Source: Candidatus Thalassolituus haligoni
GTDB taxonomy: Bacteria > Pseudomonadota > Gammaproteobacteria > Pseudomonadales > Oceanobacteraceae
NCBI RefSeq assembly: GCF_041222825.1
Contig: NZ_CP139482.1
Location: 2,015,001 to 2,079,000, forward strand
Length of the DNA: 64,000 nt
Reading direction: 5' to 3'
Shown here: positions 49,522-64,000 of the stretch, one piece after another
Layout of the letters: each line of letters begins with the position of its first letter
Position numbering within the stretch: position 1 is the first letter of the stretch
Position numbers and translations under genes: made by a program
The notes under the pieces: model-generated
The model's input: only the letters and a program-made list of their open reading frames with translations
What the model was told of the DNA's origin: nothing
Databases searched by the model: none

Positions 49522-49547
49522 GGGTATGACTGATTGATGTCATGCCC
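49522..49547 (+). terminator. Terminator-like hairpin after the peroxiredoxin
   Basis: GGGTATGAC and GTCATGCCC (one G:U pair) with an eight-base loop, followed by TTCTGTT. Likely ends the peroxiredoxin transcript. Confidence 0.6.
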
Positions 49548-49725
49548 TTCTGTTACGACTAAAATATTTGACCGGCGACCAAAGTGTCAGGCATCGTTGG
49601 CAATCTGCGGCAATCGGAAAACTTCTCAGTGATCGAGGCGGCTTCGGGTTCGAATGCTGTAATAAAGGCCTGACGTTATTGATCATAAGTGCCTTGTTCT
49701 TTGGGAAATGCATCATCAGGTGTCT

Positions 49726-50560
49726 AGCAGCCTGTCGGACTTAACCAAGCAGAATCGAAGTGAGATAATCGGAACAACGCACGCCACCGCTGGAGTTTAA
49801 TGATGGGACATTTCGTCATCGCCGATCGGGACACCTGCTTCCACCATCCATTCAGGACTGGTTACCTGAGGATCATCTGGCCCGGTTTGTCGTCGACGTG
49901 GTTGATCAGCTCGATCTGTCTGAGCTAACCCGACAGTATGCTGGGCGCGGCTCACGGGCCCATCATCCTGCCGTATTACTCAGTTTGTTGATTTATGGCT
50001 ACGCAACTCAAGGCCGAAGTGAGCGCCCTCGCCGTCCAGGCGGAGGATCAGGCATCTGTGGTTGATGGTGGTATGGATATCCCCGCCGAGATTGCCCGGC
50101 GTGAAGCGCTGGTTGACGCCAAGCGTATCATAGAGGCGCGAGCGCAAGAGCGCTTCGAACAGGAGCAGGCCGACTACCTGCAAAAAGAGGCCAAACGGCA
50201 GACTCAGAGGGACGCTGGAAAAAAGCCCCGGGGCAAACCACCGCAGCCCGGCCCTCGGGATACTGATCAAGTCAATCTGACGGACGACGAGTCTCGCATC
50301 ATGCCGTCTCCGGCGGCGGCTTTGAGCAGTGTTATAACGCTCAGGTCGGGGTGGATGCCGAGACGATGCTGATTGTCAGCACCCACCTGACCCAGGCGAC
50401 AAACGACAAACGACAAACAGCAGATCGTTCCAGCACTGACCAGGATCGAGGCATTGCCGCAGACTTCTGGGCACCGTCACGGATCTACTGGCCGACACGG
50501 GTTACTTAGCAAAGCCAACGTTCAGCTATGCAGGGAGAAGAACATCTATACGTCTAAGCC
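49726..50560 (+). pseudogene. Decayed IS1182-type transposase
   Basis: Starts with a likely terminal sequence (CAGCCTGTCGGACTTAA). Frames around 49800-50000 encode IQDWLPEDHLARFVVDVVDQ and SRAHHPAVLLSLLIYGYAT, the N-terminus of an IS1182-like transposase. It then jumps over an internal deletion to a charged segment (about 50010-50300) and, in other frames, QCYNAQVGVDAETMLIVSTH. At least three frameshifts and a deletion make it inactive. Confidence 0.75.
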
Positions 50561-50620
50561 ATTGATTTAATAGAAAAGTGTTGACGGAATAAAAATACAA
50601 TGTAATATAAGCCCCTGTTC

Positions 50621-50711
50621 GGAGGGATGGCTGAGTGGTTGAAAGCACCGGTCTTGAAAACCGGCGTAGGTTAATAGCCTACCTAGGGTTCAAATCCCTA
50701 TCCCTCCGCCA
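50621..50711 (+). tRNA. tRNA-Ser (UGA)
   Basis: A 91-base gene with acceptor stem GGAGGGA paired to TCCCTCC, a long variable arm (GTAGGTTAATAGCCTAC), the T-loop GGTTCAAATCC and an encoded CCA. The anticodon TGA is at 50655-50657. A terminator follows. The IS3 element begins 71 bases downstream. Confidence 0.97.
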
Positions 50712-50718
50712 TTATTTC

Positions 50719-50750
50719 AAAGCCTTGGCTCGTAAGAGCCAGGGCTTTTT
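50719..50750 (+). terminator. Terminator after tRNA-Ser
   Basis: AAAGCC-T-TGGCTC pairs with GAGCCA-G-GGCTTT around GTAA, ending in a T-run. Confidence 0.85.
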
Positions 50751-50907
50751 CGTTTCAGGCAGCCGTAACGCAGCCGTAACTATAGTGGTCTACTACTAAA
50801 TCCCGGATAGTCATAGAGGTGGTAACCTTGCGCCAAAAAGGTGTTCCATGAAAAGACAACGTCGTTTCTTACGGTAGTTTTCAACCCAGTTGTCCAAAAT
50901 ACTGCGT

Positions 50908-51963
50908 TTAAGCAGCACATTTATTCCGTTCAATCTCCTGCAGTTTTGCAGGATTGAGTGATACCGCTCCTGCAACGTTGCAGTTTCGGGTATCGCCAGA
51001 CCAGCGTCTGGGATTTTGTTGCTTAGCGTGCTCGTACACCACTTTCCGGTGAGCCAGAAGTGCATGGTCTTCGCCTCGGTGACGCGCACCAGGCGTAACG
51101 AAGTTGATGCTGCTGTGCCGATGCTCTTCGTTATAAGCATGCGAGAACGCCAGCATCCACTCGCGTATCGCTTGCAGCGAGCTGAAGCCCTTTGAAGGCC
51201 ACGCAGGGCAGTATTTGACTGTTCTGAACAGTGATTCGGAGTACGGGTTATCGTTGCTCACCCGTGGGCGACTGTATGACATCAGCATACCAAGTTCCGC
51301 CAGCCGTGCTTTGAGCGTATACGAGGTCATCGGTGCGCCGTTATCCGAGTGCAACACGGGCGGGTTGTGCCAGCAGCCCTCCCGCAGTAACGCACGCTCA
51401 ACCAGCTGTTTCGCACGCTCGCCAGACTCGGCATCATGTACCTCCCAGGCGACGATCTTGCGGCTGTACACGTCCATGATCAGATACAGATACCAGTGCT
51501 GGCCGCGCACTTCCGATGGGCAGTAGCTGATGTCCCAGGTCCACACTTCGTTAGGCCCCGTGGCCGTAAAACTGGTGGGCTGTGGTACTGTTCTGGCAGA
51601 CTGAGCACGGCCGCGGTGGTTGAGCTGCTGGTGCTTTTTCAGCACACGATAGAACGTGGACTCCGATGCGAGGTAGATGCCCTTGTCAGCCAGACGCGGT
51701 ACGATCTGTGAGGGCGGCAGGCTCTGATATTCCTGCAGGTTGCAGGTGTCCACAATGGCCTCTTCCTCTGACTGGGTCAGCTGGTGTGGCTGTTCCGATC
51801 TCGGGGCGTGTGGTCGCTTATCCTCAGCAACTGCACCGTTTTCAGTGCGCCATCGTTTCAACGTGCGGAGATGAATGCCGATCAGTTCCGCAGCATGCTT
51901 ACGCGAAGCGCCATCGGTCACGGCCGTATCAAAATACTCAAGCAGCCTTGTGCGCTCAGTCAT
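50908..51963 (-). CDS. IS3-family transposase OrfB
   Basis: A 351-residue DDE transposase. The catalytic triad segments are TWDISYCPSE, HSDNGAPMTS and NDNPYSESLFRTVKYCP; an N-terminal HTH (about 20-60) is present. ATG 51963 is used; TTG 51972 is an alternative. In this IS type OrfB overlaps or follows OrfA for frameshift expression. Confidence 0.9.
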   Translation of the reverse strand: MTERTRLLEYFDTAVTDGASRKHAAELIGIHLRTLKRWRTENGAVAEDKRPHAPRSEQPHQLTQSEEEAIVDTCNLQEYQSLPPSQIVPRLADKGIYLASESTFYRVLKKHQQLNHRGRAQSARTVPQPTSFTATGPNEVWTWDISYCPSEVRGQHWYLYLIMDVYSRKIVAWEVHDAESGERAKQLVERALLREGCWHNPPVLHSDNGAPMTSYTLKARLAELGMLMSYSRPRVSNDNPYSESLFRTVKYCPAWPSKGFSSLQAIREWMLAFSHAYNEEHRHSSINFVTPGARHRGEDHALLAHRKVVYEHAKQQNPRRWSGDTRNCNVAGAVSLNPAKLQEIERNKCAA

Positions 51964-51968
51964 CGGGG

Positions 51969-52387
51969 TCAAATGACCTCGTTGTCCCGATCGTCCCCGT
52001 ACAAGGCTTCCAGCTTTTTTGAGAGCACCAGTAACGCAGCGGTTTCAGCCAAGGCACGGTCTTTTCGGTTCACTTCAGCCTGAAGTTTTTTAATCGTTTT
52101 GCTCGACTCACGCTGCTGTTTCAGCGCTTCTTTCTCACGGCCCTGCTGCATGGCTGCGCCCTGTAAACAAGCCGCTTTCCAGCTATGAACCTGCTCAACA
52201 TAGAGGCCTTTTTCACGGCAATAGGCCGCACGCTCAACTTCAGACAAGCCCGCTGTTTCGATGACAACAGCCAGCTTGGCATCGGGTGACCAGGTATCGG
52301 CTGTCGGCTGGTTTCCGGGCACGGGAACTCCATCTTGTCGGCATAGTTTCAACCAACTATACAGGGTCACATCGGAAATGCCTTCCT
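51969..52387 (-). pseudogene. IS3-family OrfA, 5'-truncated
   Basis: Codes for an HTH segment (EEGISDVTLYSWLKLCRQDG) and a C-terminal coiled coil (EVNRKDRALAETAALLVLSK). The frame continues to 52493 only through the foreign IS4 end, so the natural N-terminus has been lost. Confidence 0.8.
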
Positions 52388-53637
52388 CTGTCCGGTTAAC
52401 TGACTCGCCAAAAGAAAGGAGCCCGGTTCCCATGCCGTTTCCGGTAAAATGAAGCTTCTCACAGACATCATTCAGAGGAACCGGGCTTGGCACATTCTAA
52501 CACCGTACTGGCACAGCTACTCAACGTCATCCCTCGTCATCAATTTCAGAAAACCGTCGATCAATACCGGGCCGACAAACGCACACGAACCTTGTCATGC
52601 TGGGGGCAATTGGTGGCCTTGCTGGTGGGTCAGCTGAGTGGTGCTTCCTCTCTGCGAGGGCTGGTTGAACAGCTCGATGTTCAATCCCGCCGTCTGTACC
52701 ATCTGGGCCTGAAGCCCGTTCGCAAAAGCACACTGGCCGATGCCAATCAAAAGCGCTCCACGCTGGTCTATTACATGCTGTTCTTTCGCTTGCTGTCCCG
52801 TTTGGCCAGACAGAAAGGTCTTCGGGAAGTCATCACTCAGGTGCAACTGATCGACTCCACCACCATCTCCCTCTGTCAGTCACGCTACCAATGGGCCCAT
52901 TTCCGGAAGAATAAAAGCGGTGTCAAAATCCATACGGTCTACGATCCCAATGCCGACACGCCCATCTATTTTGAAATCACCGACGCTAGAGTTAGCGATG
53001 GCCGCGCCATCTCTCAACTCTCTGTTTTTCAAGGAACTACTTACGTATTTGATCGTGCCTATAACGGTGGGGCGTGGCTCGAAAAGCTCGTGAATGAGGG
53101 CTGTCTGTTTGTGGGCCGGATGAAGAAAGATATGAATTACAAGGTCACGAAGTCTCTGCCACCGAAAGGGGTGGGTGTGGTGAGGGATGAAAAAATCGAA
53201 GTGTGTTACAAGACCCGATCGTATCTGAAAGGCCGCACCTTGAGGCGAGTCGTGTTTCATCGTCAGCAGGATGACAAGGAGCTGGTCTTCATCACTAATG
53301 ACCTGAAACGCAGCGCTCTGGCGATTGCGGATTTGTACAAACAGCGCTGGCAGATTGAATTGTTTTTCAAGTGGATCAAGCAGAATCTCAAGATCAAACA
53401 GTTCTATGGTACGTCAGAAAACGCCGTCAAATTGCAGGTTTTAGTGGCGATGATCAGCTATGTGCTGTTGCGTCTGATCCAGCAAGGCGTGGCCCCTGAA
53501 AGGCGTTTGGGGAATGTGTCAATCCGACTGGGATCGGTACTTATGCAGCGAATGCCGCTGCTGGAGGTGTTCAGAAAACCACCGGATTTGCCGGATGATA
53601 CAGGGCAGCTGGGTCTGGGATTTGGTTAACCGGACAG
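52388..53637 (+). mobile_element. IS4-family insertion sequence
   Basis: 1250 bp bounded by perfect 13-bp inverted repeats CTGTCCGGTTAAC and GTTAACCGGACAG. It carries one intact transposase. It is inserted in orfA of the IS3 element. No target duplication is seen at the edges (left flank CCTTCCT, right flank TAGTGAC), which suggests a later rearrangement. Confidence 0.88.
52487..53629 (+). CDS. IS4-family transposase
   Basis: A 380-residue DDE transposase. Catalytic segments are LIDSTTISLC, VFDRAYNGGA and the Y-R-E motif YKQRWQIELFFKWIKQNLKI. Start at TTG 52487, eight bases after AGAGGA. It appears intact, so the element may still be mobile. Confidence 0.92.
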   Translation: MAHSNTVLAQLLNVIPRHQFQKTVDQYRADKRTRTLSCWGQLVALLVGQLSGASSLRGLVEQLDVQSRRLYHLGLKPVRKSTLADANQKRSTLVYYMLFFRLLSRLARQKGLREVITQVQLIDSTTISLCQSRYQWAHFRKNKSGVKIHTVYDPNADTPIYFEITDARVSDGRAISQLSVFQGTTYVFDRAYNGGAWLEKLVNEGCLFVGRMKKDMNYKVTKSLPPKGVGVVRDEKIEVCYKTRSYLKGRTLRRVVFHRQQDDKELVFITNDLKRSALAIADLYKQRWQIELFFKWIKQNLKIKQFYGTSENAVKLQVLVAMISYVLLRLIQQGVAPERRLGNVSIRLGSVLMQRMPLLEVFRKPPDLPDDTGQLGLGFG

Positions 53638-53798
53638 TAGTGACTTAGTATCGTTCACAACAGGAAGCAAAGGTGGATATTGGCCATTATCTGATGGGTT
53701 CTTACAACCAGCAGCGGCAACATACCGCGAATGGAGGGATTAGCCCTCACGCAGCGAAAGAAAAACTTAAAACCGTATCCGAAATGGGTTGACCACTA
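53638..53798 (+). pseudogene. 3' remnant of another IS3-family OrfB
   Basis: One frame codes for YLMGSYNQQRQHTANGGISP and a Lys-rich tail before a stop at the terminal sequence GACCACTA. This is the C-terminal part of an IS3 OrfB in plus orientation. The rest is missing. Confidence 0.65.
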
Positions 53799-53909
53799 CA
53801 AGCGTGGACGCGACTCAGCATTTTACATACTACGAACTCCTTTTTAAAGTCCAGCTTCATATCAATTGCAGTCTCAGATTATTGTAATAATTCATGCCGA
53901 TATATTAAA

Positions 53910-53927
53910 AATAAACCAAGGTTTATT
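53910..53927. promoter_or_regulatory. StyR-box-like palindrome upstream of styS
   Basis: AATAAACCAAGGTTTATT has 8-bp perfect arms around AA. It matches the STY box known in Pseudomonas (ATAAACCATGGTTTAT) at 14 of 16 positions. It lies 62 bases before the element at 53990, and therefore 339 bases from the styS start; without the element the distance would be about 70, the same as at styA. Confidence 0.7.
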
Positions 53928-53989
53928 GGGAATACAGTGATTCTGGATCAAAGTTGCATGTCATGACATTATGGGTGTGGCTTGCTAAA

Positions 53990-54252
53990 GGGGACATCTA
54001 TTTAATCCGGTGCTTACTCTGGGCTACTGGATGGTTTCGAATCACGAAGCCGACTTGCAGGCCTGACGGATCAAGTCAAACGTCGGCGACACAGAGTCGA
54101 GATCATCCGGCAGCCCCCGCAGGGCGCGGGTTGCCGCCGTCCAGTGCGGTGTTGACGAATGTGAAAAGGACGCGTCATTTTCACATTCGCCGCCTTGCCC
54201 TGAACAAGGGCAACACTCGCGCAGAGCCGTGCAGGATTAAATAGATGTTCCC
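53990..54252 (+). mobile_element. TAAA-flanked 263-bp element, left copy (E1)
   Basis: Terminal repeats GGGGACATCTATTTAATCC and GGATTAAATAGATGTTCCC are inverted with one mismatch. The flanks are TAAA on both sides (53986-53989, 54253-54256). It has no gene. An internal perfect hairpin, CGAATGTGAAAA paired with TTTTCACATTCG, lies near 54157-54190. It is about 95% identical, in inverse orientation, to the copy at 63543-63807. This is a MITE-like structure. Confidence 0.85.
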
Positions 54253-54266
54253 TAAAGGAGACTGTT

Positions 54267-57098
54267 CTGAATATTGTTGATAATTACGCTCGTCTGGTGC
54301 TGGATAATATGTTCCATTTCGCCGGATTGCTGGATCTGGAAGGCAAGATTATTTATATCAATTTGCCTGCGTTAGAGGCTGTTGGTTGTCGTCTTGAAGA
54401 TGTTCGGGGACAGTATTTCTGGGATTCTCCCTGGTTTCAGGTTAATGAGCTCAGTGGGCATCAGCAGCGTGAATTCGTACAGTCGGCATTGGCCGGGCAG
54501 TTTGTTCGTGAAGATTTGGAAGTTTTTGGTAAAAACCAGGGACGTGAAAAAATAATCACAGATTACAGCCTGAAACCAATGTTCGATGGTGAAGGTGACG
54601 TGGCGTTTATACTGGCCGAAGGGCGCGATATTACGGATAAAAAAAATCTTGAGAGAGAGGTCGATCAGAAAAACCAGCGGCTAATAAATTTGCTTGAAGA
54701 GTATGAGGAATTGTCGCGCAACCAGAAGAATTTTTTCTCTAACCTTAGCCACGAACTGAAAACGCCGCTTTCCCTAATTCTAGGTAATACCGATATCCTG
54801 ATGTCTAGGCTCGGTGAAAATGATGACCCGATGGAATTGTCGTCAATCCGTACTAATGCCCTCAGTATGTTGTATCTGGTTGATGAAATGTTAGAACTCG
54901 CAAAAATCGATGCTGGTAAAGCCATGATGAATTTCGAACTCTGCGATCTTCGTGAGATTGTGCAGACGGTGCTATCCAATTTTTACAGTTATGCCAAATC
55001 GCGCTCTATTCAGATTACTCTGCATGCCGCTCCGACAGTCAGAGTCACTGTTGATGTATCCAAGGTGCGGCAGATCGTATTCAACCTTGTGGGTAATGCT
55101 ATCCGGGTGGTTCCTGCCAATGGCCTGATCGAATGCGACGTTAGTCGCTCTCAGGATGTCGTTGTTGTCGCTATCTCTGATAATGGTCCCGGCATTCCAA
55201 TACACCTCAAAAACACCCTGTTTGATCGTTTTCAGACCGGTAACCACCAGCGGTCTGGTTATCATGCTGGAAGCGGTCTGGGATTGGCTATCGTCAAAGA
55301 ATATTGTGAGTTGCATGGTGGTTCCATCCGAGTTGAAGACGTCCAGCCGAGCGGCACTCGGTTTGAGATTCATCTGCCAGTTGGAGAGGATATCATTCAC
55401 GGTGATGACCTGGTGTATACGGTTGAATCAATCATTCAGGGAGACCAGGTGATATTACCTCCGGATATTGCTGATCCGATAAAGGACAATAAGGTACTGG
55501 CTCCGCAACAGCTGACGACAGATGGGTCATATGTACTGCTTGCAGAAGACAACGATGGTGTTGCTGAAATGTTATTGCGGGTACTGTCTTCTTCTTATCA
55601 GGTTGTAGTTGTTAGTAATGGCCAAGCTGCTCTTACAACGCTTCGGCAGGCGCGCCCATTGCTTTTGATTACCGATTTAATGATGCCTGGCATGGACGGT
55701 TATGAGTTGATTCGAGAAATCAAGAAATCTTCTGAACTACAAGATGTTCCTATTCTGGCGCTGTCGGCCAATAAGAATGAACAAGCACGGATCGATTTGT
55801 TGTCGGGCTACGTGGATGATTATGTTACCAAACCATTTTTTATTCCTGAGCTTTTGTCGCGAGTGCGCAATATCATCGAATTACACAAGGCCAAGCTATC
55901 AATCCGGGAGGAACTCTCCACACACAACAACGATTTGATCAGCCTGATTCGAGAACTGATTGAAGCGCGTAGCAATCTGCAGAATGTGCTGGACGAGCAA
56001 AAGGAAATTCAGTACCGGATGAACGCGATTTTCAACAATTCTTGCGTTGGAATCGCTGTGATCGATAGCAATCTGGATGTGGTAGATGCCAATCCATTCT
56101 TCAGTCAGGTACTTGGTTACCAGGACGATGAGATGACGGGAATGTCTGTGTTCGATTTGTCCGCTACTGAAGATGTATCATCGCATTTGTTCCGGTTTGG
56201 TGAATTGTTGGAATTCGACAGTTCCAGTAATCACTATGAAATGCGCTTTATTTCCAAATCTGGTACGGAAGTATGGGTCAATTCGAGTATTTCTGTTGTG
56301 CCAGCGTCGGTGTCCGCTCCAGTGTTACTAGTGGGCATTTTCGAAGATATCACCGAGAAAAAGCACATCAGGGAAAGCCTGATGTTATCACGCAAGGAAA
56401 TCGAACGTTTTTCCAGAATATCTATTGTCAATGAGCTCGCCAGCTCTATTGTTCACGAAATCAATCAGCCGCTGTCGGCGATTGTGTCGAATGTTCATGC
56501 TTGTGACCTTTGGCTAAATGGCGAACGAGCCAATCCTGAGCACGTGAATCGTTCGCTGGGGCTTATTCGGCGCGACGCAGATCGTGCAGTGGAATTGATT
56601 TCCTCTATTCGTAATTTTGTTAAAAGCTCCTCCCTGGAACTGCACTTTACTTTGGCCTCCGAGCTGCTAAAAGATGTTGCAAGGATCGTTTCCTATGAGG
56701 CTCAGGCTGCGGGTATCGAACTTGAGTTCGACATTGTGAAGGATCACCAAATTTACGCAGACCCCGTGTCTCTAAAACAGGTATTCGTAAATCTGATTCT
56801 GAACGCCATTCAGGCACTGGAAGGATGTTATGAATGCACTGCAGGAAAGATTCTGGTGCGATGTGATGCCAGTGATGGCTTTGTCAATATGTCGGTGGAA
56901 GACAATGGTCCTGGTCTGGCATTCCCTCTGATCGACAATTTATTCGAACCTTTCTATTCCAACAAAAAGGATGGGCTGGGATTTGGTTTATCCATTTGTC
57001 GCGGAATTCTTGAAAGTCACCGCAGTTCTCTTGACTACGAACCGCTAATGCCCAGAGGTGCAAGGTTCTTCTTTCGAGTGGTAGGTAAAATCACATGA
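54267..57098 (+). CDS. styS: Hybrid sensor histidine kinase StyS (TodS-like)
   Basis: About 943 residues with the TodS/StyS layout: PAS1 (about 15-120), kinase 1 (H-box SHELKTP, His162), ATPase 1, a receiver (LLITDLMMPGMDG, Asp470), PAS2 (about 590-700), kinase 2 (VHEINQPLSAI, His730) and ATPase 2. It would sense styrene in the cytoplasm and phosphorylate StyR. The start is unusual: AAAGGAG is followed after six bases by CTG 54267, whereas the next usual codon is GTG 54297, with no ribosome binding site. TodS is about 35 residues longer. The E1 element sits 14 bases upstream. Confidence 0.9.
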   Translation: MNIVDNYARLVLDNMFHFAGLLDLEGKIIYINLPALEAVGCRLEDVRGQYFWDSPWFQVNELSGHQQREFVQSALAGQFVREDLEVFGKNQGREKIITDYSLKPMFDGEGDVAFILAEGRDITDKKNLEREVDQKNQRLINLLEEYEELSRNQKNFFSNLSHELKTPLSLILGNTDILMSRLGENDDPMELSSIRTNALSMLYLVDEMLELAKIDAGKAMMNFELCDLREIVQTVLSNFYSYAKSRSIQITLHAAPTVRVTVDVSKVRQIVFNLVGNAIRVVPANGLIECDVSRSQDVVVVAISDNGPGIPIHLKNTLFDRFQTGNHQRSGYHAGSGLGLAIVKEYCELHGGSIRVEDVQPSGTRFEIHLPVGEDIIHGDDLVYTVESIIQGDQVILPPDIADPIKDNKVLAPQQLTTDGSYVLLAEDNDGVAEMLLRVLSSSYQVVVVSNGQAALTTLRQARPLLLITDLMMPGMDGYELIREIKKSSELQDVPILALSANKNEQARIDLLSGYVDDYVTKPFFIPELLSRVRNIIELHKAKLSIREELSTHNNDLISLIRELIEARSNLQNVLDEQKEIQYRMNAIFNNSCVGIAVIDSNLDVVDANPFFSQVLGYQDDEMTGMSVFDLSATEDVSSHLFRFGELLEFDSSSNHYEMRFISKSGTEVWVNSSISVVPASVSAPVLLVGIFEDITEKKHIRESLMLSRKEIERFSRISIVNELASSIVHEINQPLSAIVSNVHACDLWLNGERANPEHVNRSLGLIRRDADRAVELISSIRNFVKSSSLELHFTLASELLKDVARIVSYEAQAAGIELEFDIVKDHQIYADPVSLKQVFVNLILNAIQALEGCYECTAGKILVRCDASDGFVNMSVEDNGPGLAFPLIDNLFEPFYSNKKDGLGFGLSICRGILESHRSSLDYEPLMPRGARFFFRVVGKIT

Positions 57099-57730
57099 AA
57101 ATAAGAAAAAATATTCTGTTGGTTGACGATGACGCTTCGGTGCGCGAAAGCCTGGCCAATTTACTGCAAGCCCATGATATTAACCATCAAGAATTTTGTA
57201 GCGGCCGTGAGTTTCTGAATGCATTAGATACCCTTGCACTGAATGACGGAGGTTATTGCATTCTGATGGATGTACGAATGCCAAGAATGACTGGCCTGGA
57301 AGTGCAAGAACACCTGAAGCGTCGATCTTGCTTTGTCCCTATGGTGTTTATTACAGCGCATGGAGATATTCGAATGGCGGTAAATGCCATCAAAATGGGG
57401 GCTTTTGATTTCGTTACTAAGCCGTTCGATACCTGTTCGCTGCTGGGTGTTATTGAAGGTGCCATTGCTCAGGATCTCAAGGCTCGCAGAGAGCAAAGCC
57501 GAGAGCAGACGATTGTTAACGGCTATCAGTGTCTGACGCCAAGAGAGAAAGTGCTGCTAGAACTGGTTCTGGATGGCAAGCTTAACAAACAGATCAGTGC
57601 CGAACTGAATATATCTGAGGTGACTGTTAAGGTGCATCGCCACAATCTTATGAAGAAACTTGGTGAGCGTTCGTGGGCCAAAATTGCGGTCGCCATCAAT
57701 GGGCTAAAAAAGGGGCTGCCGAGACAGTAG
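57095..57730 (+). CDS. styR: Response regulator StyR (LuxR family)
   Basis: A 211-residue regulator. It has an N-terminal receiver (DDD at 11-13, phosphorylated Asp59 in LMDVRMP) and a C-terminal LuxR-type HTH (LTPREKVLLELVLDGKLNKQ). It overlaps styS by four bases. Phosphorylated StyR should activate PstyA through the palindromes described at 60493 and 60520. Related regulators are TodT and TutB. Confidence 0.92.
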   Translation: MKIRKNILLVDDDASVRESLANLLQAHDINHQEFCSGREFLNALDTLALNDGGYCILMDVRMPRMTGLEVQEHLKRRSCFVPMVFITAHGDIRMAVNAIKMGAFDFVTKPFDTCSLLGVIEGAIAQDLKARREQSREQTIVNGYQCLTPREKVLLELVLDGKLNKQISAELNISEVTVKVHRHNLMKKLGERSWAKIAVAINGLKKGLPRQ

Positions 57731-58109
57731 ATAAATGCGCTGCTCTTGTTAGTTTTTTGGTGCCGTATCCTATTCACGCATTGTGCGCTGTAATCTGGCA
57801 TCATTGCTGAAAAAAATATCACAATGACTTAAGGATCCTCTATTAGTCCCGATAGCTCTAAATTCACCAACCGCTCTGTTTGGCAGCGACCCGCGCCCTG
57901 AGGGTCTACTGAATGACAGCGACTTGTTTTAAATTGACACGTTGATCTGCAAACCGGATTTTTGATATGAAACTACCGCAGGCACAAAATTTAATAGATG
58001 GGCACTCAATTCTTAGATAGTATTTGAACTATAAAAATTAAAAAATAGGAGCAGAATAACCTGCTCCCGAAAAGGCTTGCGGGTGAAAGGGAATCGAAAA
58101 GGAATGCAG
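57731..58109. other. Intergenic stretch between styR and styC
   Basis: About 380 bases between convergent genes, rather AT-rich, with no gene. It holds the styC terminator at 58040-58067. I recognise nothing else. Confidence 0.6.
58040..58067 (-). terminator. Terminator after styC
   Basis: GGAGCAG and CTGCTCC pair around AATAAC. On the minus strand the hairpin is followed by a T-run, ending the styABC transcript. Confidence 0.88.
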
Positions 58110-58595
58110 TTACGAGTGGATCTTGTTGGAAATCAAATTGGAACCCATCATCAGTAAAGCAACGACTGCCAGTATACCAAACAGGTATGCTGGTGCCAGT
58201 GCTATGACGCTGTAAATGTCCCCTGGGCCATATATGTTGTTACCAAAGCTCAGCGCGCGATTTCCGGAGAAATTGGAGAAAAGATAGAAAATTATATTAG
58301 ACCAACCATCCAGAATAACAAACCAGGCCAGCAGTCTGATTTTTGTTTCCGTAAATCTCAGGTAGGGTAGAGCAATGGCACAGGCAATGACCATCATTCC
58401 ATTTAACGCAGGTCCTGTGTGTGCTCGAGCCCATCCCTCAGGCGTGCCCGGAATGTTAAATTCCAAAATGTAGCCTGGGTACAGTTCGAAACCTCCGACC
58501 AGATTAACCCAAAGACCAATACCGAATATCAGCGTTGAAAGGATCATCAATATGCCATGCCCTAGCATTTTTATTTTAAATTGATCTATTGTCAT
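58110..58595 (-). CDS. styC: Styrene oxide isomerase StyC
   Basis: A 161-residue integral membrane protein with about four helices that converts styrene oxide to phenylacetaldehyde. It matches StyC along its length: GHGILMILSTLIFGIGLWVN, GGFELYPGYILEF, PEGWARAHTGPALNGMMVIA and YLFSNFSGNRALSFG. His59 and Tyr104, in conserved segments, are candidates for the heme-binding and catalytic residues reported for this enzyme. It is slightly shorter than the Pseudomonas protein, lacking its basic tail. Twelve bases separate it from styB. Confidence 0.93.
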   Translation of the reverse strand: MTIDQFKIKMLGHGILMILSTLIFGIGLWVNLVGGFELYPGYILEFNIPGTPEGWARAHTGPALNGMMVIACAIALPYLRFTETKIRLLAWFVILDGWSNIIFYLFSNFSGNRALSFGNNIYGPGDIYSVIALAPAYLFGILAVVALLMMGSNLISNKIHS

Positions 58596-58607
58596 GTCGT
58601 CAGCCTC

Positions 58608-59108
58608 TCACATTGGTGTTGCAGGAAGGAAATGATAGCTGCTAGAAAAAAATATTAGAGGTGCCAGCTCAGTCTCCGCTTTTTTACAGAGACTAACTTT
58701 CCCAAGAATTAGTGTGTGATCATCTTGAATAATCTTTTTATCAACGGTGCATTCAAACCAGGCTAGACAATCTTTCAGTGTTGGAACATCATTACGAATC
58801 AGAAAATTCTGATCGTATTTTTCATCCTTTTCTTTGCGAGCGAAGTTAGATGAAATATTTTGTTGGTTGGCGCTCAAGATGCTGACACCAAATACACCGG
58901 TATCATCAATGAGATCGAGCATAGTGCCACTTTTAAGGGAAATCAGTAGGGTGGCGGGATCCAGACTGATGGATGTCAGACTGTTAATCGTCATGCCATA
59001 TGGTTTGCCATTGGGCAGCATATTACTTACCAAGGCAATGCCAGTGGTAAATTTTGAAATTGCCTGGCGAAAATCCAGGCTGTCTACGACGGGTGCTACT
59101 TCAGTCAT
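58608..59108 (-). CDS. styB: Styrene monooxygenase reductase StyB
   Basis: A 166-residue flavin reductase of the StyB/HpaC type: FRQAISKFTTGIALVSNMLP, YGMTINSLTSISLDPATLLI, FGVSILSANQQNISSNFARK, CLAWFECTVDK. It uses NADH to reduce FAD, which StyA takes up for epoxidation. It lies 90 bases after styA on the same strand. Confidence 0.93.
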   Translation of the reverse strand: MTEVAPVVDSLDFRQAISKFTTGIALVSNMLPNGKPYGMTINSLTSISLDPATLLISLKSGTMLDLIDDTGVFGVSILSANQQNISSNFARKEKDEKYDQNFLIRNDVPTLKDCLAWFECTVDKKIIQDDHTLILGKVSLCKKAETELAPLIFFSSSYHFLPATPM

Positions 59109-59198
59109 GATTGTTACCTTGAATATCTAAAATAGGCAGGCGCATAACGCCCGCTGTTAGTGTTTTAATAGTATCTTTGAGTCCCAAGCTAATGCCGA

Positions 59199-60425
59199 TC
59201 AGCTGTATTTTGCGCACCATTTCTGGATGCGATCTGGATTGGAAAAATAATCCATCTGCTTTTCTGGGTAGTTGAAATTATCGGTAAACTCATTGGCCAT
59301 CTCCCGGCTCTGGCTCATGGTCTGAATAAACTCCATGAAAGGGGTTGGCATTTTACGCAGTGCGTCCAAGCAAAAATTGGTCCATCGGGTAGCGCATTGA
59401 ACGCGATCAGCACGGCGTGCTTCAATATGTTCGATAAAGCGGTCATCCAATACACTATTACGAACAATTTCTTCGCCGATAATCTGGGCAGAAAAAGTTG
59501 CCATATTGGCACCTTGTCCCAGTACCGGATCAACGGTGGCATGAATATCGCCTAAGGCAATCACCCTTTTTCCGTTAGGCAATGTTGCCGTGCCCTGTCG
59601 AAGGGTTGGTGTTACGGCGCCCTGAAGAATATCCCGAGAGCTACTGGCGAGACCGAAATTTTTGCGGTCGATACGCTCATAAACAAACGGGTGATGTTTC
59701 TTCAATTTTTCCAATAGTAGATCCAGGAAGGCCTGCGGATTGTCGTCATATTTAGTCTTCATTAGCACTTCCATGTCGCCACCGAAGTGATTTTCCATAA
59801 CCAGTGCAGTACACATGCCATTGAAAGAAAGGGTTGGGATCTCTATCAACTCGCCTTCGCCTGGTGCGAATGACATAGTTACCGCACGGGTTTTATCTTC
59901 CCGAATGCCTTTGAACAGGCCAACGCAAAGAGCTCGCTGCGGTTTGATAAAGGGCGAGTAGGCCTCATTTGTCTCGAATAATCCCGCAAAAGCAAATTTA
60001 CCGACACATACGGTGACCAGATCGAAGCGTTCGGACATGGGCTCCAGATCTTCCTTGGTCAGTTCTTCATAGCTGAACTCGCCGCCCAGTTCTTCGAAAT
60101 CCTGCATTAGGGTCGGCAAATAAATACGGTAATCCACTGCGCGACTGGGGCGTTTAAGATCGCCGTAGAACTTGATAGGATGTTCTCCGCCTATGTTGTA
60201 GTAATGACCGTAATAGCCAGCGTTTGGCCAGTGGTTAATGCCCATGGAATTTTCCCGATCAATCGTGACCGAATGGTGTGCAACGGTGTTGAGCAGTTTT
60301 GACGATGCATATTCTTCAGGCTTTCTATCAGTAAAAATAGTGACGTCTATATCATTTTTTCGTAAGTAGATACCCAGGTGAAGACCCGCTGCTCCGGCAC
60401 CTATAATTGCAATTTTCTTAGTCAT
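59199..60425 (-). CDS. styA: Styrene monooxygenase StyA
   Basis: A 408-residue FAD-dependent epoxidase that turns styrene into (S)-styrene oxide. The Rossmann motif GAGAAG is at residues 9-14. StyA-specific stretches are LLNTVAHHSVTIDRE, KFYGDLKRPSRAVDYR, KPQRALCVGLFKGI, GDIHATVDPVLGQGANMA and SQSREMANEFTDNFNYPE. It is a close match over its full length (415 in Pseudomonas). ATG 60425 follows AAAGGG by 8 bases. Two StyR-box-like palindromes lie upstream. Confidence 0.96.
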   Translation of the reverse strand: MTKKIAIIGAGAAGLHLGIYLRKNDIDVTIFTDRKPEEYASSKLLNTVAHHSVTIDRENSMGINHWPNAGYYGHYYNIGGEHPIKFYGDLKRPSRAVDYRIYLPTLMQDFEELGGEFSYEELTKEDLEPMSERFDLVTVCVGKFAFAGLFETNEAYSPFIKPQRALCVGLFKGIREDKTRAVTMSFAPGEGELIEIPTLSFNGMCTALVMENHFGGDMEVLMKTKYDDNPQAFLDLLLEKLKKHHPFVYERIDRKNFGLASSSRDILQGAVTPTLRQGTATLPNGKRVIALGDIHATVDPVLGQGANMATFSAQIIGEEIVRNSVLDDRFIEHIEARRADRVQCATRWTNFCLDALRKMPTPFMEFIQTMSQSREMANEFTDNFNYPEKQMDYFSNPDRIQKWCAKYS

Positions 60426-60464
60426 CTTAAAGACCCTTTGTTATATTTTTATAGTCGTACTTCT

Positions 60465-60535
60465 ACAGTAGTGTTTATTTTTAGAATACGCAATAAACCA
60501 AGGTTTAATAATTTATTATTTAAACTTTAGTTTAT
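60465..60535 (-). promoter_or_regulatory. Candidate styA promoter with two StyR boxes
   Basis: ATAAACCAAGGTTTAA (60493-60508) is nearly the same as the box ahead of styS; TTAAACTTTAGTTTAT (60520-60535) is a second, weaker palindrome. They lie 68-111 bases upstream of the styA ATG. A possible -10 hexamer on the minus strand, TACTGT, is at 60465-60470, which would put the first box near -41, where activators often bind. The -10 is tentative. Confidence 0.65.
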
Positions 60536-60724
60536 CCTCTATGATAAATAGAATTTTATTGTGATTAATTTTTTTATTTTTCAAGCTATTGAAGTAAAAG
60601 ATTCGGTATGTTTTATTTTGATGGGGTTGGTATAAAAGCTGTGGCTCGCCCGCTGTGTGGTGATGTTGGATAATATTGAGAGCATTGGTTAAGGTTGTAA
60701 AATCATATGGTATCTCCTGCTCTT

Positions 60725-60903
60725 GTTAAATCCTGCACAACTCTAACCTCTGGCTTCTGCATCCATGCATTCGTGCGCGAGTGTTGCTGGATGTCAGAGC
60801 AAGGCGGCGAATGGAGCAAAATGACGAGTCCTTTTCAAATTCGCCAACACCGTTCTGGCTTGCAGTAACACTCGCCCAAAACTGGCACCAGATTAAGATG
60901 TCC
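60725..60903 (-). repeat. Diverged internal copy of the TAAA-flanked element (E3)
   Basis: About 180 bases that match the end and middle of the other copies: TTAAATCCTGCAC at the left, CGCGAGTGTTGC, GCAAGGCGGCGAATG, GTCCTTTTCA and ATTCGCCAACACCG, then GATTAAGATGTCC at the right. It lacks roughly 100 internal bases and is clearly older. Its right edge falls immediately after the TAA stop of the aldehyde dehydrogenase gene. Confidence 0.75.
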
Positions 60904-60905
60904 TT

Positions 60906-62312
60906 TTAGCTGAAGACTACCTGGATATTGGTGTTGGCTAGCAAGCCTTCCTTGCCGAACTCTACACCTATGCCAGAGCTCTTTATACCGCCAAACGGAG
61001 CGTTCGGCTGGATCGCGCCGTGTTTGTTGATCCAGACTGAACCGCACTCCATTCGGAAAGCAATGTTTTTGGCGGCATTAATATCAGTACTCCAGACTGA
61101 TCCACCCAAACCTGTCGGATTATCATTGGCAGCGGCAATAGCATCATTAATATCACTGTAAGGAATGATAGGTAAGGCTGGTCCAAATTGTTCTTCACGT
61201 ACCAGCGGGTCATTCGGGTTGCTGGTGGCAATCAGGGTGACCGGGAAAAACAGCGTATTGTTATCACTCACCGGACCGCCGGTCAGCAGCTTTCCACCCT
61301 GATTGACGGAATCCTTTACCAGTTGATTCACCTTATTGAACTGCATCCGATTCTGGATGGGGCCAAGCTCGCTGTCCTGGTGGAAGCCGTCACCTACGGT
61401 AACGGTGCTGGCAAACTCTGCCAATGCCGTGCACACCTTGCTATAAATGGACTCGTGGACGTACAGACGTTTCAGTGCGGCACAGGTTTGGCCATTATTG
61501 AGAAAGGCCCCCCAGAACAGCCCTGGCGCAATCTCTGTAGGGTCGGAATCAGGCAACACGATACCTGCATCGTTACCTCCCAGTTCCAAGGTCAGTCGCT
61601 TCAGGGTTTCAGCTGACGATGACATGACTTTTTTGCCAGTTTCAATACTGCCAGTAAATACAATTTTACCTATCTGTTCATGAGCGGACATTGCGGCACC
61701 TAACTCATCACCGCCGGTAATACTATTTACGACACCGGCTGGCAGAACTTCGTTCATCAGCTCGATCATCCTTAGAGTCGATAAAGGTGTGAGTGGTGAT
61801 GGCTTGCAAACTACGGTGTTACCTGAGCGAATGGCTGGAATAATGTGCCAGACGGCAATCATCAATGGCCAATTCCATGGGGTGATCGAACCGATAACGC
61901 CGATGGGTTTACGGTGCATTTCAACCTTGCCAGTTTCATCATCCTGCAGCACTTCTACAGGCATCTCCAACGATGCAGTGTACTGTGTCCAAGCGATGGC
62001 ACCGCCCACTTCAAACATGGAGCCAGTGCCCTGCATTGGTTTGCCTTGTTCGGACGTTAGAATAGTTGCCAGCTCTTGATGGTGCTCTTCAAGCTTGGTT
62101 GCAATAGCTTGGCAATACTGTTGGCGTTGCTGGTCTTCAATAGCTGACCAGACAGGAAAGGCCGCATGAGCAGCGGCAACTGCTTGCTCTAGGATGGTTG
62201 TATCTGCCTTTGGGGCATGGCCCGCTATTTCTGTCGTGGATGGGTTAAAAACCTGGAAGCTTGCGCTGATGTCGGCAGGAATGCCGTTAATGTAGTTATC
62301 GAAACGATACAT
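60906..62312 (-). CDS. Aldehyde dehydrogenase, probable phenylacetaldehyde dehydrogenase
   Basis: A 468-residue NAD(P)-dependent aldehyde dehydrogenase. Catalytic residues are Asn147 (PWNWP), Lys170, Glu243 (LELGGN) and Cys277 (NNGQTCAAL). Position beside styABC and a FeaR-like regulator suggests that it oxidises phenylacetaldehyde to phenylacetate, the role of StyD. It is about 30 residues shorter than classical StyD/FeaB, and starts almost at the family core, so it may come from another aldehyde dehydrogenase branch. It ends at the E3 repeat. Confidence 0.8.
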   Translation of the reverse strand: MYRFDNYINGIPADISASFQVFNPSTTEIAGHAPKADTTILEQAVAAAHAAFPVWSAIEDQQRQQYCQAIATKLEEHHQELATILTSEQGKPMQGTGSMFEVGGAIAWTQYTASLEMPVEVLQDDETGKVEMHRKPIGVIGSITPWNWPLMIAVWHIIPAIRSGNTVVCKPSPLTPLSTLRMIELMNEVLPAGVVNSITGGDELGAAMSAHEQIGKIVFTGSIETGKKVMSSSAETLKRLTLELGGNDAGIVLPDSDPTEIAPGLFWGAFLNNGQTCAALKRLYVHESIYSKVCTALAEFASTVTVGDGFHQDSELGPIQNRMQFNKVNQLVKDSVNQGGKLLTGGPVSDNNTLFFPVTLIATSNPNDPLVREEQFGPALPIIPYSDINDAIAAANDNPTGLGGSVWSTDINAAKNIAFRMECGSVWINKHGAIQPNAPFGGIKSSGIGVEFGKEGLLANTNIQVVFS

Positions 62313-62426
62313 AAGCTTTCTCTTTTTATTGGGTTGTATATGTTCGATCGTTCGCTGTGGTTGTAAGCGACAGTGTCACCCTGTTTATAGCAAGAATACT
62401 GTGTGGCTAATACTAGTTTGGCAGTG

Positions 62427-62452
62427 GTGCGAAACCAACTGGCGAAAACAAC
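62427..62452. promoter_or_regulatory. Direct repeat between the FeaR-like gene and the dehydrogenase
   Basis: GTGCGAAACCAAC and TGGCGAAAACAAC are adjacent 13-bp copies agreeing at 10 positions. They lie about 115-140 bases upstream of the dehydrogenase start. AraC-family regulators bind direct repeats, so this is a candidate FeaR-type operator. Confidence 0.4.
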
Positions 62453-62473
62453 CAATCAATTGCCGCCAAAGTA

Positions 62474-63394
62474 TTAGTCGGGGCGGTAGCGCTTACGGTA
62501 GGCTGCTGGCGTCAGACCAAAACGGTGCTTGAATCGAGTGCAGAAATGGCTGCTATCTACAAAACCAAAGCTGTAACCAACGGCAGCGATTTTTTCAACA
62601 TGAATGGCTGTTCTCAACTCTCGAGCACAAAAATCCAGTCGACGATTTCGAATATAAGTCTTTACACCTCCATGTTCTGTAAACAGCCGATACAGGGATC
62701 GCTGGGAGAGGCCTGCCTCGGTGGCGATACATGCCGGAGTCAGGGTCGCATCAGTAAGATGTGCGTCAATCAGACGCTGAAGTTTGTCAAATTGACGCGC
62801 CTGAACGTAATTGCCAGGGAATTTTTCTCTTTGTAGTGGGGTCAGCAAAGAACTGATTGCATCTAGAAAAGCGTCGCTTTCCAGCATGTTCAAAGAGGGG
62901 TTTTGTCCCAGCTCCTGCATTAGGCTATTGGCCAGCCGGGTCATGGGAAGCTGCGCATGCAGCCGTTTTGCTGTAGGCAGGGGGTGATTGTGTTGATTCT
63001 GATTGCTGATGTTGCGAGGCAAAATGAGCGAAATTTGCTGAGACTGATTCGTGAATACCAGTTCAAATGGCAGGCGACTGTCTAGCAGATAGATATCACC
63101 GCAAGCGAGTTCACTACGGTTGTCGGCCTGTTGTATCTGGGCGCAACCGTTCAGCTGGAACACCATAAAATAATGGTCGTTTAAGTCTTCCTGAATATCG
63201 GCGTCCGTTCGGAATAGGCGGCAGTGCTGGGTTTGCACATGACTGAATTTGAGGCTGCCACTGTAATACCCCTTGATGGTACCGCTGAATGGTTCGCCCG
63301 CAGGTTCGGCCTGAAAGCGACCGCAGATGTTGTTAATATCATTCAACCAATGGTCAAACTGTTCGGACGTGTGGGCTTGGGTGGTCATATTCAT
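62474..63394 (-). CDS. feaR: AraC-family regulator, FeaR-like
   Basis: A 306-residue regulator. The N-terminal AraC-binding-like domain (FDHWLNDINNICGRF) and C-terminal double HTH (CIATEAGLSQRSLYRLFTEH, YIRNRRLDFCARELR, FKHRFGLTPAAYRKRY) resemble E. coli FeaR, which activates the phenylacetaldehyde dehydrogenase gene feaB. ATG 63394 is chosen because AGGAG lies seven bases upstream; the longer frame from 63508 adds unrelated residues. It points toward the dehydrogenase gene. Confidence 0.85.
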   Translation of the reverse strand: MNMTTQAHTSEQFDHWLNDINNICGRFQAEPAGEPFSGTIKGYYSGSLKFSHVQTQHCRLFRTDADIQEDLNDHYFMVFQLNGCAQIQQADNRSELACGDIYLLDSRLPFELVFTNQSQQISLILPRNISNQNQHNHPLPTAKRLHAQLPMTRLANSLMQELGQNPSLNMLESDAFLDAISSLLTPLQREKFPGNYVQARQFDKLQRLIDAHLTDATLTPACIATEAGLSQRSLYRLFTEHGGVKTYIRNRRLDFCARELRTAIHVEKIAAVGYSFGFVDSSHFCTRFKHRFGLTPAAYRKRYRPD

Positions 63395-63542
63395 TTGCAC
63401 ACTCCTAAGTGGTGATTGTGCTGGGGCGTTGCAGGGGTTAATAAATCCCTCAAGCTGCGGAAATTGAATTTTCCGATACCTTAGGGGTGGATGTATTAAC
63501 ACCTTCAACTCCTAGTTCGTTCTTTGCGATTGATGAGCTAAA

Positions 63543-63807
63543 GGGGGCATCTATTTAATCCTGCACGGCTCTGCGCGAGTGTTGCCGTTGTTCAGGGCAA
63601 GGCGGCGAATGCAGCGAAAGGACACGTCCTTTTCACATTCGTCAACACCGCACTGGACGGCGGCAACCTGCGCCCTGCGGGGGCTGCCGGATGATCTCGA
63701 CTCTGTGTCGCCGACGTTTGACTTGACCCGTCAGGCCTGCAAGTCGGCTTCGTGATTCGGAACCATCCGGTAGCCCAGAGTGAGCACCGGATTAAATAGA
63801 TGTCCCC
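63543..63807 (-). mobile_element. TAAA-flanked 265-bp element, right copy (E2)
   Basis: The inverse of E1: ends GGGGGCATCTATTTAATCC and GGATTAAATAGATGTCCCC, flanked by TAAA on both sides (63539-63542, 63808-63811). About 95% identical to E1; the internal hairpin arm is partly changed. It is located between the feaR-like start and the window edge. Confidence 0.85.
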
Positions 63808-64000
63808 TAAAGATACTGGAGGTAGAGTTTTATTTTTTATCACATGGTTAAAATAGTTTTTTTCATTTCAAGTATCAAGGCTTGAAGGGACGAAAATCTC
63901 TTCAGGGCTGCTCTCGGTAATCCCTCATCTCTGATAGACGTTATTTTTGCATTTTAAATGGCCAGAATAAATGCCCTTTCGCCTGGTTTCGGTGTTTTTC
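63808..64000. other. Window end, no gene seen
   Basis: About 190 AT-rich bases after the right element. No open frame with family resemblance. A gene may start further right. Confidence 0.5.

Follow-up and report, generated by a model that had tools for sequence, protein, structure and literature searches.

The window analysed here, a 64-kb stretch of the host chromosome, contains intact open reading frames (ORFs) for styS, styR, styA, styB, styC, an aldehyde dehydrogenase (ALDH), and a FeaR-type regulator, each at about the position assigned to it in the initial annotation. The stySR genes on the forward strand are convergent with styCBA on the reverse strand, bearing out the earlier statement that the regulators face the catabolic genes, and the ALDH and FeaR genes lie upstream of styA on the same strand as styA (Table 1).

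Table 1. Features of the styrene locus (coordinates are those of the window; bit scores are followed by model cut-offs)
Feature	Position	Strand	Basis or remark
Acquired region, ~16.3 kb	49532..64000, on to about 65879 past the window end		Empty site in G059
tRNA-Ser(TGA) inside acquired region	50621..50711	+	Inverted relative to tRNA-Ser of empty site
IS3-type transposase gene and adjoining ORF	50908..52493	-	50908-51972: NF033516, 183 bits (cut-off 160); 51969-52493: by position only
IS4-type transposase	52487..53629	+	NF033592, 253 bits (cut-off 115)
STY-box-like palindrome ATAAACCAAGGTTTAT	53911..53926		Upstream of styS, outside left MITE-like element; 0 mismatches
MITE-like element, left copy, 263 bp	53990..54252	+	TAAA at 53986-53989 and 54253-54256
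styS, hybrid sensor kinase, 933 aa from GTG	54297..57098	+	PAS, HisKA, HATPase, receiver
styR, response regulator	57095..57730	+	Response_reg and GerE; 54% to Amphritea StyR
styC, styrene oxide isomerase	58110..58595	-	NF045734, 231 bits (cut-off 150); 8pnu, E 1.4e-65
styB, flavin reductase of styrene monooxygenase	58608..59108	-	NF045733, 191 bits (cut-off 200); Flavin_Reduct
styA, styrene monooxygenase	59199..60425	-	NF045732, 668 bits (cut-off 550); 3ihm, E 3e-183
STY-box-like palindrome ATAAACCAAGGTTTAA	60493..60508		-83 to -68 from styA start; 1 mismatch
Fragment of MITE-like element between ALDH and styA	60774..60877	-	78% to right copy, 78% to left copy
ALDH, presumed phenylacetaldehyde dehydrogenase	60906..62312	-	PF00171, 464 bits; groups with Oceanobacter-type ALDHs
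FeaR-type AraC-family regulator	62474..63508	-	NF007243, 314 bits (cut-off 199)
MITE-like element, right copy, 265 bp	63543..63807	-	TAAA at 63539-63542 and 63808-63811
EthD-family gene, beyond window	64423-64740		TIGR02118, 52 bits (cut-off 30.5)
OmpW-family gene, beyond window	64982-65638		

StyA and StyC score well above the cut-offs of their own NCBIfam models and have homologues of solved structure (3ihm and 8pnu, respectively), so their homology is not to generic families only, and StyA falls into a 100/99 clade with the Amphritea and Paraglaciecola proteins. StyB is just short of the cut-off of its own NCBIfam model, which is nonetheless the best NCBIfam model for that ORF, and it is encoded as a separate flavin reductase adjoining styA rather than as an A2B fusion. 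Of 44 genomes of the family, the host was the only one with StyA at E≤1e-60. A scan of genome contigs with a single StyA sequence confirmed no relative; an alignment-based scan gave 79 loci, from the best 80 of 120. StyC was present at E≤1e-30 in 9 of 390 genomes drawn from the order, host included, and in the 17-18 kb examined around each of the other eight StyC genes, StyS (≥120 bits) could be found in a single genome (G240). StyA is near-identical in Amphritea sp. OB2 (L016) and in a protein named from Paraglaciecola chathamensis (P0002), which suggests that sty clusters may have been transferred recently between marine genera.

We considered whether the monooxygenase could serve another substrate, for example indole, with styrene incidental. 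StyA-like enzymes of 28-30% identity do occur in two of five genomes of the same genus, and similar plasmid matches are named as belonging to a styrene monooxygenase/indole monooxygenase family; but StyA here is well over the equivalog cut-off, clusters with named StyAs, and is accompanied by StyC, StyS, StyR, and the box, making a different substrate improbable.

In StyS, HisKA, HATPase, and PAS each occur twice and a receiver once, a make-up matching that described for Pseudomonas StyS in excerpts of PMC2442086. It is 47% identical to Amphritea StyS and 39-41% identical to six other StyS proteins. All box scans used a literature-derived pattern that we take to be the StyR-type box. With this pattern, StyS and StyR in the window are accompanied by a box before styA, and a putative box (≤2 mismatches, ≤200 bp upstream of styA) was found in 7 of 7 StyS-bearing loci (StyS ≥400 bits; two of them, L021 and L153, appear to be one contig, and L018 and L019 are near-identical) versus 0 of 76 loci without StyS, which are mostly distant (many from Bradyrhizobium and actinobacteria) and so do not amount to 76 independent tests. 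Ninety loci entered this comparison; seven were dropped because the StyA match was below 300 bits, and 75 of the 76 have at least 150 bp of upstream sequence. The position of the styA box is identical in Pseudomonas sp. VLB120, Marinobacter, and the metagenome-assembled genome (MAG) L018, and 1 bp farther out in Marinobacterium and Alloalcanivorax; Amphritea has two boxes with spacings unlike those of the other StyS loci. The co-occurrence of box and StyS, with a spacing that varies by no more than 1 bp across the window and the six non-Amphritea StyS loci, offers a candidate sequence rule for StyR-controlled styA genes.

The ALDH remains under both StyD cut-offs (384 bits versus 850 for the Pseudomonas model NF045735, and 331 versus 800 for the Rhodococcus model) and is thus no StyD by the NCBIfam test. 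ALDHs 62-63% identical to it are encoded in roseobacter sty clusters. Phylogenetically, the ALDHs of Amphritea, Marinobacterium, Marinobacter, and MAG L018 split off together (100/100 and 99/96 in two trees, although the Amphritea sequence forms a long branch and the program flagged its placement as unsure), and the island copy lies outside this clade of sty-associated ALDHs and inside an Oceanobacter-containing group (94/93; 91/90 for its subclade, and 100/100 for a wider group including Marinomonas). Zero-length branches link the ALDHs of two genomes of the same genus with Oceanobacter mangrovi and O. kriegii proteins, and the host may accordingly be a member of Oceanobacter. The host encodes a second ALDH at 4130189-4131589 of its chromosome (G000:C1), 72% identical to the island ALDH; the idea that the island gene is a recent duplicate of this copy is unsupported, as the latter groups with a copy from the same-species genome and not with the island gene. 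Beside this second ALDH lie a gene for an AraC-type regulator (28% identical to the island FeaR) and an ORF resembling, by its start, a GMC-type oxidoreductase.

The AraC-type regulator that the initial annotation had paired with the ALDH is indeed there, and its score against the NCBIfam FeaR equivalog exceeds the cut-off. A FeaR native to the family is unsupported, the host being the only one of 44 family genomes with a match at E≤1e-40; weaker matches of 27-33% occur in four of six genomes of the same genus and, at that level of identity, do not point to a source for the regulator. With up to five candidates scored per genome, FeaR was found at E≤1e-60 in 2 of 389 other genomes drawn from the order (41% identical); in both, an ALDH gene (36%) lies no more than 1 kb from it and paaG matches lie at least 2 kb away. 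What we take to be the FeaR motif, TGNCA-N8-AAA, has one match between FeaR and the ALDH against 22 over 83 kb, and is uninformative. A scan of 49500-66000 for StyR-type boxes (≤3 mismatches) gave one before styS, two in the ALDH-styA gap, and none elsewhere, a pattern compatible with regulation of the ALDH by FeaR, which is probable.

Among the StyS-bearing loci compared, the core proteins StyS, StyR, StyA, StyB, and StyC are closest to those of Amphritea OB2 (47, 54, 69, 56, and 71% identity, respectively). Judged by these protein relationships the island is a mosaic, its sty core and its ALDH having different relatives, and the suspicion of a differently assembled pathway was well founded. 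The GC contrast agrees with a mosaic origin: 0.45-0.46 in the sty core, 0.41 in the EthD-OmpW segment, 0.49-0.50 in FeaR/ALDH, and 0.53 in the IS zone and both flanks.

The limits of the acquired region are given by a genome of the same species, G059 (the one such genome compared; 93% complete in 120 contigs, with the site within one contig). G059 gave no StyA at E≤1e-60. Its contig C9 agrees with the host as far as 49531 (99.3%, 3,547 bp aligned) and again from 65880 onwards (99.1%, 3,232 bp aligned); the two flanks are separated in G059 by 310 bp, which contain a tRNA-Ser gene opposite in orientation to that of the window. The acquired region therefore spans ~16.3 kb, begins 4.5 kb to the left and ends 2.1 kb to the right of the two MITE-like elements, and holds both elements inside it; the empty site gave no match to the element. 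A strain lacking exactly 53986-63811 had been the expected counterpart; G059 lacks this larger region instead. The site is likewise empty and laid out in the same way in the more distant G003, with identities of 78.9 and 80.2% for the left pieces and 83.0% for the right one. Because a same-species genome has an empty site, horizontal acquisition at the tRNA-Ser site is well supported. The stretch from 50554 to 50716, comprising tRNA-Ser(TGA) and sequence upstream of it, is 92% identical to, and inverted relative to, its G059 counterpart, where the flanks are 99% identical; it looks as though the tRNA-Ser gene was exchanged along with the island. In G005, of the same genus, a tRNA-Ser in the orientation of the window is followed by a different ORF of 465 aa and then by the same right flank. 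No integrase was recognised in the acquired region among those of its ORFs of ≥90 aa that were searched, and of the candidate vehicles of insertion, the IS elements found at its left edge are the most likely.

Deletions adjoining tRNA genes are common, and the sty cluster could on that ground be ancestral, having been deleted in the sister strain and other relatives. We regard this as very unlikely: StyA is confined to a single family genome, the distant G003 shares the layout of left flank, tRNA-Ser, and right flank with G059, the GC content is below that of the flanks, and the ~310 bp at the G059 site are too small for IS elements.

The two MITE-like elements are inverted relative to each other, with arms 96% complementary. 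They are 263-265 bp long with terminal inverted repeats and TAAA duplications (both window copies), and belong to a family with at least 57 aligned pieces in the host chromosome that merge to at least 40 places, 21 of them near full length; both counts are lower bounds because 40 of 87 first-look candidates were scored. The family has GGGGACATC-type ends in inverted pairs, and CATCTATTTAATCC-type ends are also given for the 40-place chromosomal family. Ten loci were fetched, and flanks were examined for both window copies (the left copy being L001), L005, L007, L008, and L009; L007, L009, and the two window copies show 4-bp flanking repeats, and in L008 and L005 the repeats are shorter or unclear.

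According to the initial annotation, these elements frame the gene set and might be the ends of a mobile unit that brought the pathway as one 10-kb cassette. The inverted orientation, the complementary arms, and the TAAA at both outer flanks speak for such a unit; but i) TAAA is also present at the inner flanks, and each copy therefore has its own duplication, where a composite or MITE-bounded transposon has a target duplication at its outer ends only; ii) an element of 263-265 bp would be too short for a transposase gene; iii) the family is dispersed over the chromosome; iv) when 21 elements were placed at random, 37% of 20,000 trials produced one or more pairs of neighbours facing opposite ways no more than 9.6 kb apart, and the genome itself has a second, closer opposite-facing pair (1549823/1552856, 3 kb apart); v) the absent region is not the element-to-element interval, and the empty site has no element match; and vi) a StyR-type box lies outside the left element and the EthD- and OmpW-like genes lie outside the right one, and the two elements do not bound the gene set. 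The fragment at 60774-60877 is a third member of the family, lying between the two elements; with 40 places, three within 10 kb anywhere were found in 13% of random trials, so local crowding is mild. Family dispersal, individual duplications, the empty site, and the chance control lead us to reject a MITE-bounded unit, an idea that is largely refuted and to which we give almost no credence. Thus, both elements exist and are inverted, and the region was acquired horizontally, but framing beyond chance, and a role of the elements as ends or movers, are unsupported; the elements are independent insertions internal to the acquired region. More generally, inverted repeats around a gene set are no evidence of mobility when the repeat belongs to a dispersed family.

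The left element lies between the box at 53911-53926 and styS, and may alter styS expression. Homology to Amphritea StyS runs in frame upstream of the GTG at 54297 to about 54276 (VDNYARL versus IEGYARI, three of seven residues identical), and the reading frame contains no ATG, GTG, or TTG from the stop at 54201 down to this GTG, so the StyS start is uncertain. The Shine-Dalgarno-like AAAGGAG is retained at 54254-54260, so the start must be either a rare CTG at 54267 or the GTG at 54297. A promoter and terminator scan of the styS leader revealed nothing above chance: for the one promoter type scanned, 53880-54320 has no promoter-like site on the forward strand and one on the reverse strand (shuffles 0.8). 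These features raise the possibility, doubtful but not negligible, that this copy of the cluster is in decay or has been silenced, the left element having cut styS off from its promoter and operator and removed its start, leaving the pathway uninducible. The site of the element, the lack of an in-frame start codon upstream of GTG 54297, and the lack of a forward-strand promoter-like site would all be accounted for, but the ORFs are intact, the AAAGGAG is kept, the styA box and its spacing are intact, and the scan was for one promoter type only.

As for the lower pathway, PaaG, PaaK, and PaaA matches are located at about 502-511 kb of the host chromosome, and phenylacetate made by the island is probably usable by the host. 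Further ORFs at 502-511 kb resemble paa genes by eye. Besides the host, PaaA/PaaC-type genes are present in two of six other genomes of the same genus (G002 and G003), and neither was found in the 93% complete same-species genome G059; the phenylacetate pathway may vary within the species.

We conclude, with a probability of roughly 0.82 for the explanation as a whole, that the locus is a horizontally acquired mosaic styrene island at a tRNA-Ser site, with MITE-like elements that inserted independently. The pathway on the ~16.3-kb region would have been assembled from two or more sources, with stySR and styABC as an Amphritea-type core and an Oceanobacter-type ALDH with FeaR; the region also carries the EthD- and OmpW-like genes. 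StyA and StyB would epoxidise styrene, StyC would convert styrene oxide to phenylacetaldehyde, and the ALDH would oxidise phenylacetaldehyde to phenylacetate, which the products of the distant chromosomal paa cluster would then degrade. StyS and StyR are predicted to activate styABC through the box at -83 to -68, FeaR probably governs the ALDH, and one of the MITE-like elements would have inserted into the styS leader.

A more detailed history can be proposed, although as a joint scenario it is speculative and rather unlikely. A divergent Amphritea-type arrangement (styR and styS reversed, followed by styA, styB, and styC) may have been circularly permuted to styA, styB, and styC followed by reversed styR and styS, if a circular or tandem-duplicated intermediate opened between two StyR boxes and left one box each before styS and styA; the FeaR/ALDH module may have been recruited later, placing the toxic aldehyde step under a sensor of its own; and the MITE-like element in the styS leader may then have rewired or silenced the styrene sensor.

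The styrene-to-phenylacetate gene set is a known pathway in a new arrangement, acquired horizontally and not as a MITE-bounded cassette, and both its gene order and its combination of modules are new relative to the loci examined. The island points to styrene catabolism in marine gammaproteobacteria being modular, with sty core and dehydrogenase having different relatives, and represents a full sty set inserted into a chromosome with a phenylacetate pathway elsewhere.

The order differs from that of Pseudomonas, as had been claimed: stySR and styCBA are convergent and the ALDH is upstream of styA, unlike the codirectional styS-R-A-B-C-D layout, and the convergent layout is found in none of the other StyS-bearing loci (StyS ≥400 bits in 7 of 90). 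The Pseudomonas order is not itself universal, however, since Marinobacter, Marinobacterium, Alloalcanivorax, and Amphritea differ from it. No such sty cluster is described for Oceanobacter in the titles and abstract openings of the open-licence papers that literature searches listed. The position of the ALDH upstream of styA, previously taken to be unusual, is confirmed but has a precedent in Sphingopyxis fribergensis Kp5.2, where feaB is upstream of styABC according to excerpts of PMC7910268 and PMC5874493; that cluster differs in that the paa genes adjoin, and styS and styR were not found there, as stated in excerpts of the latter. The pSTY stySRABC cluster of Pseudomonas sp. VLB120 (L097) has the same core genes and an identical styA box spacing, but its S-R-A-B-C genes are all codirectional with paaK upstream of styS, and the window ALDH fails the StyD models. 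The clusters of Marinobacterium, Marinobacter, and Alloalcanivorax (L017, L019, and L021) share the core genes, an EthD-like gene, and a StyR-type box with the island, but run A-B-C ... EthD-(ALDH)-S-R on one strand; the order A-B-C ... S-R also holds for MAG L018 and for Alloalcanivorax L021/L153. The Marinobacterium and Marinobacter clusters have an ALDH of another clade, and the Alloalcanivorax cluster has no ALDH match. EthD- and OmpW-like genes also accompany roseobacter sty clusters. Amphritea sp. OB2 differs from the island in the divergent orientation of its stySR and styABC, and in what follows downstream, namely a FadL-type gene and an ALDH from a different clade, with no FeaR match in the stretch, but it has the closest five core proteins, and two box-like sites lie between its styS and styA.
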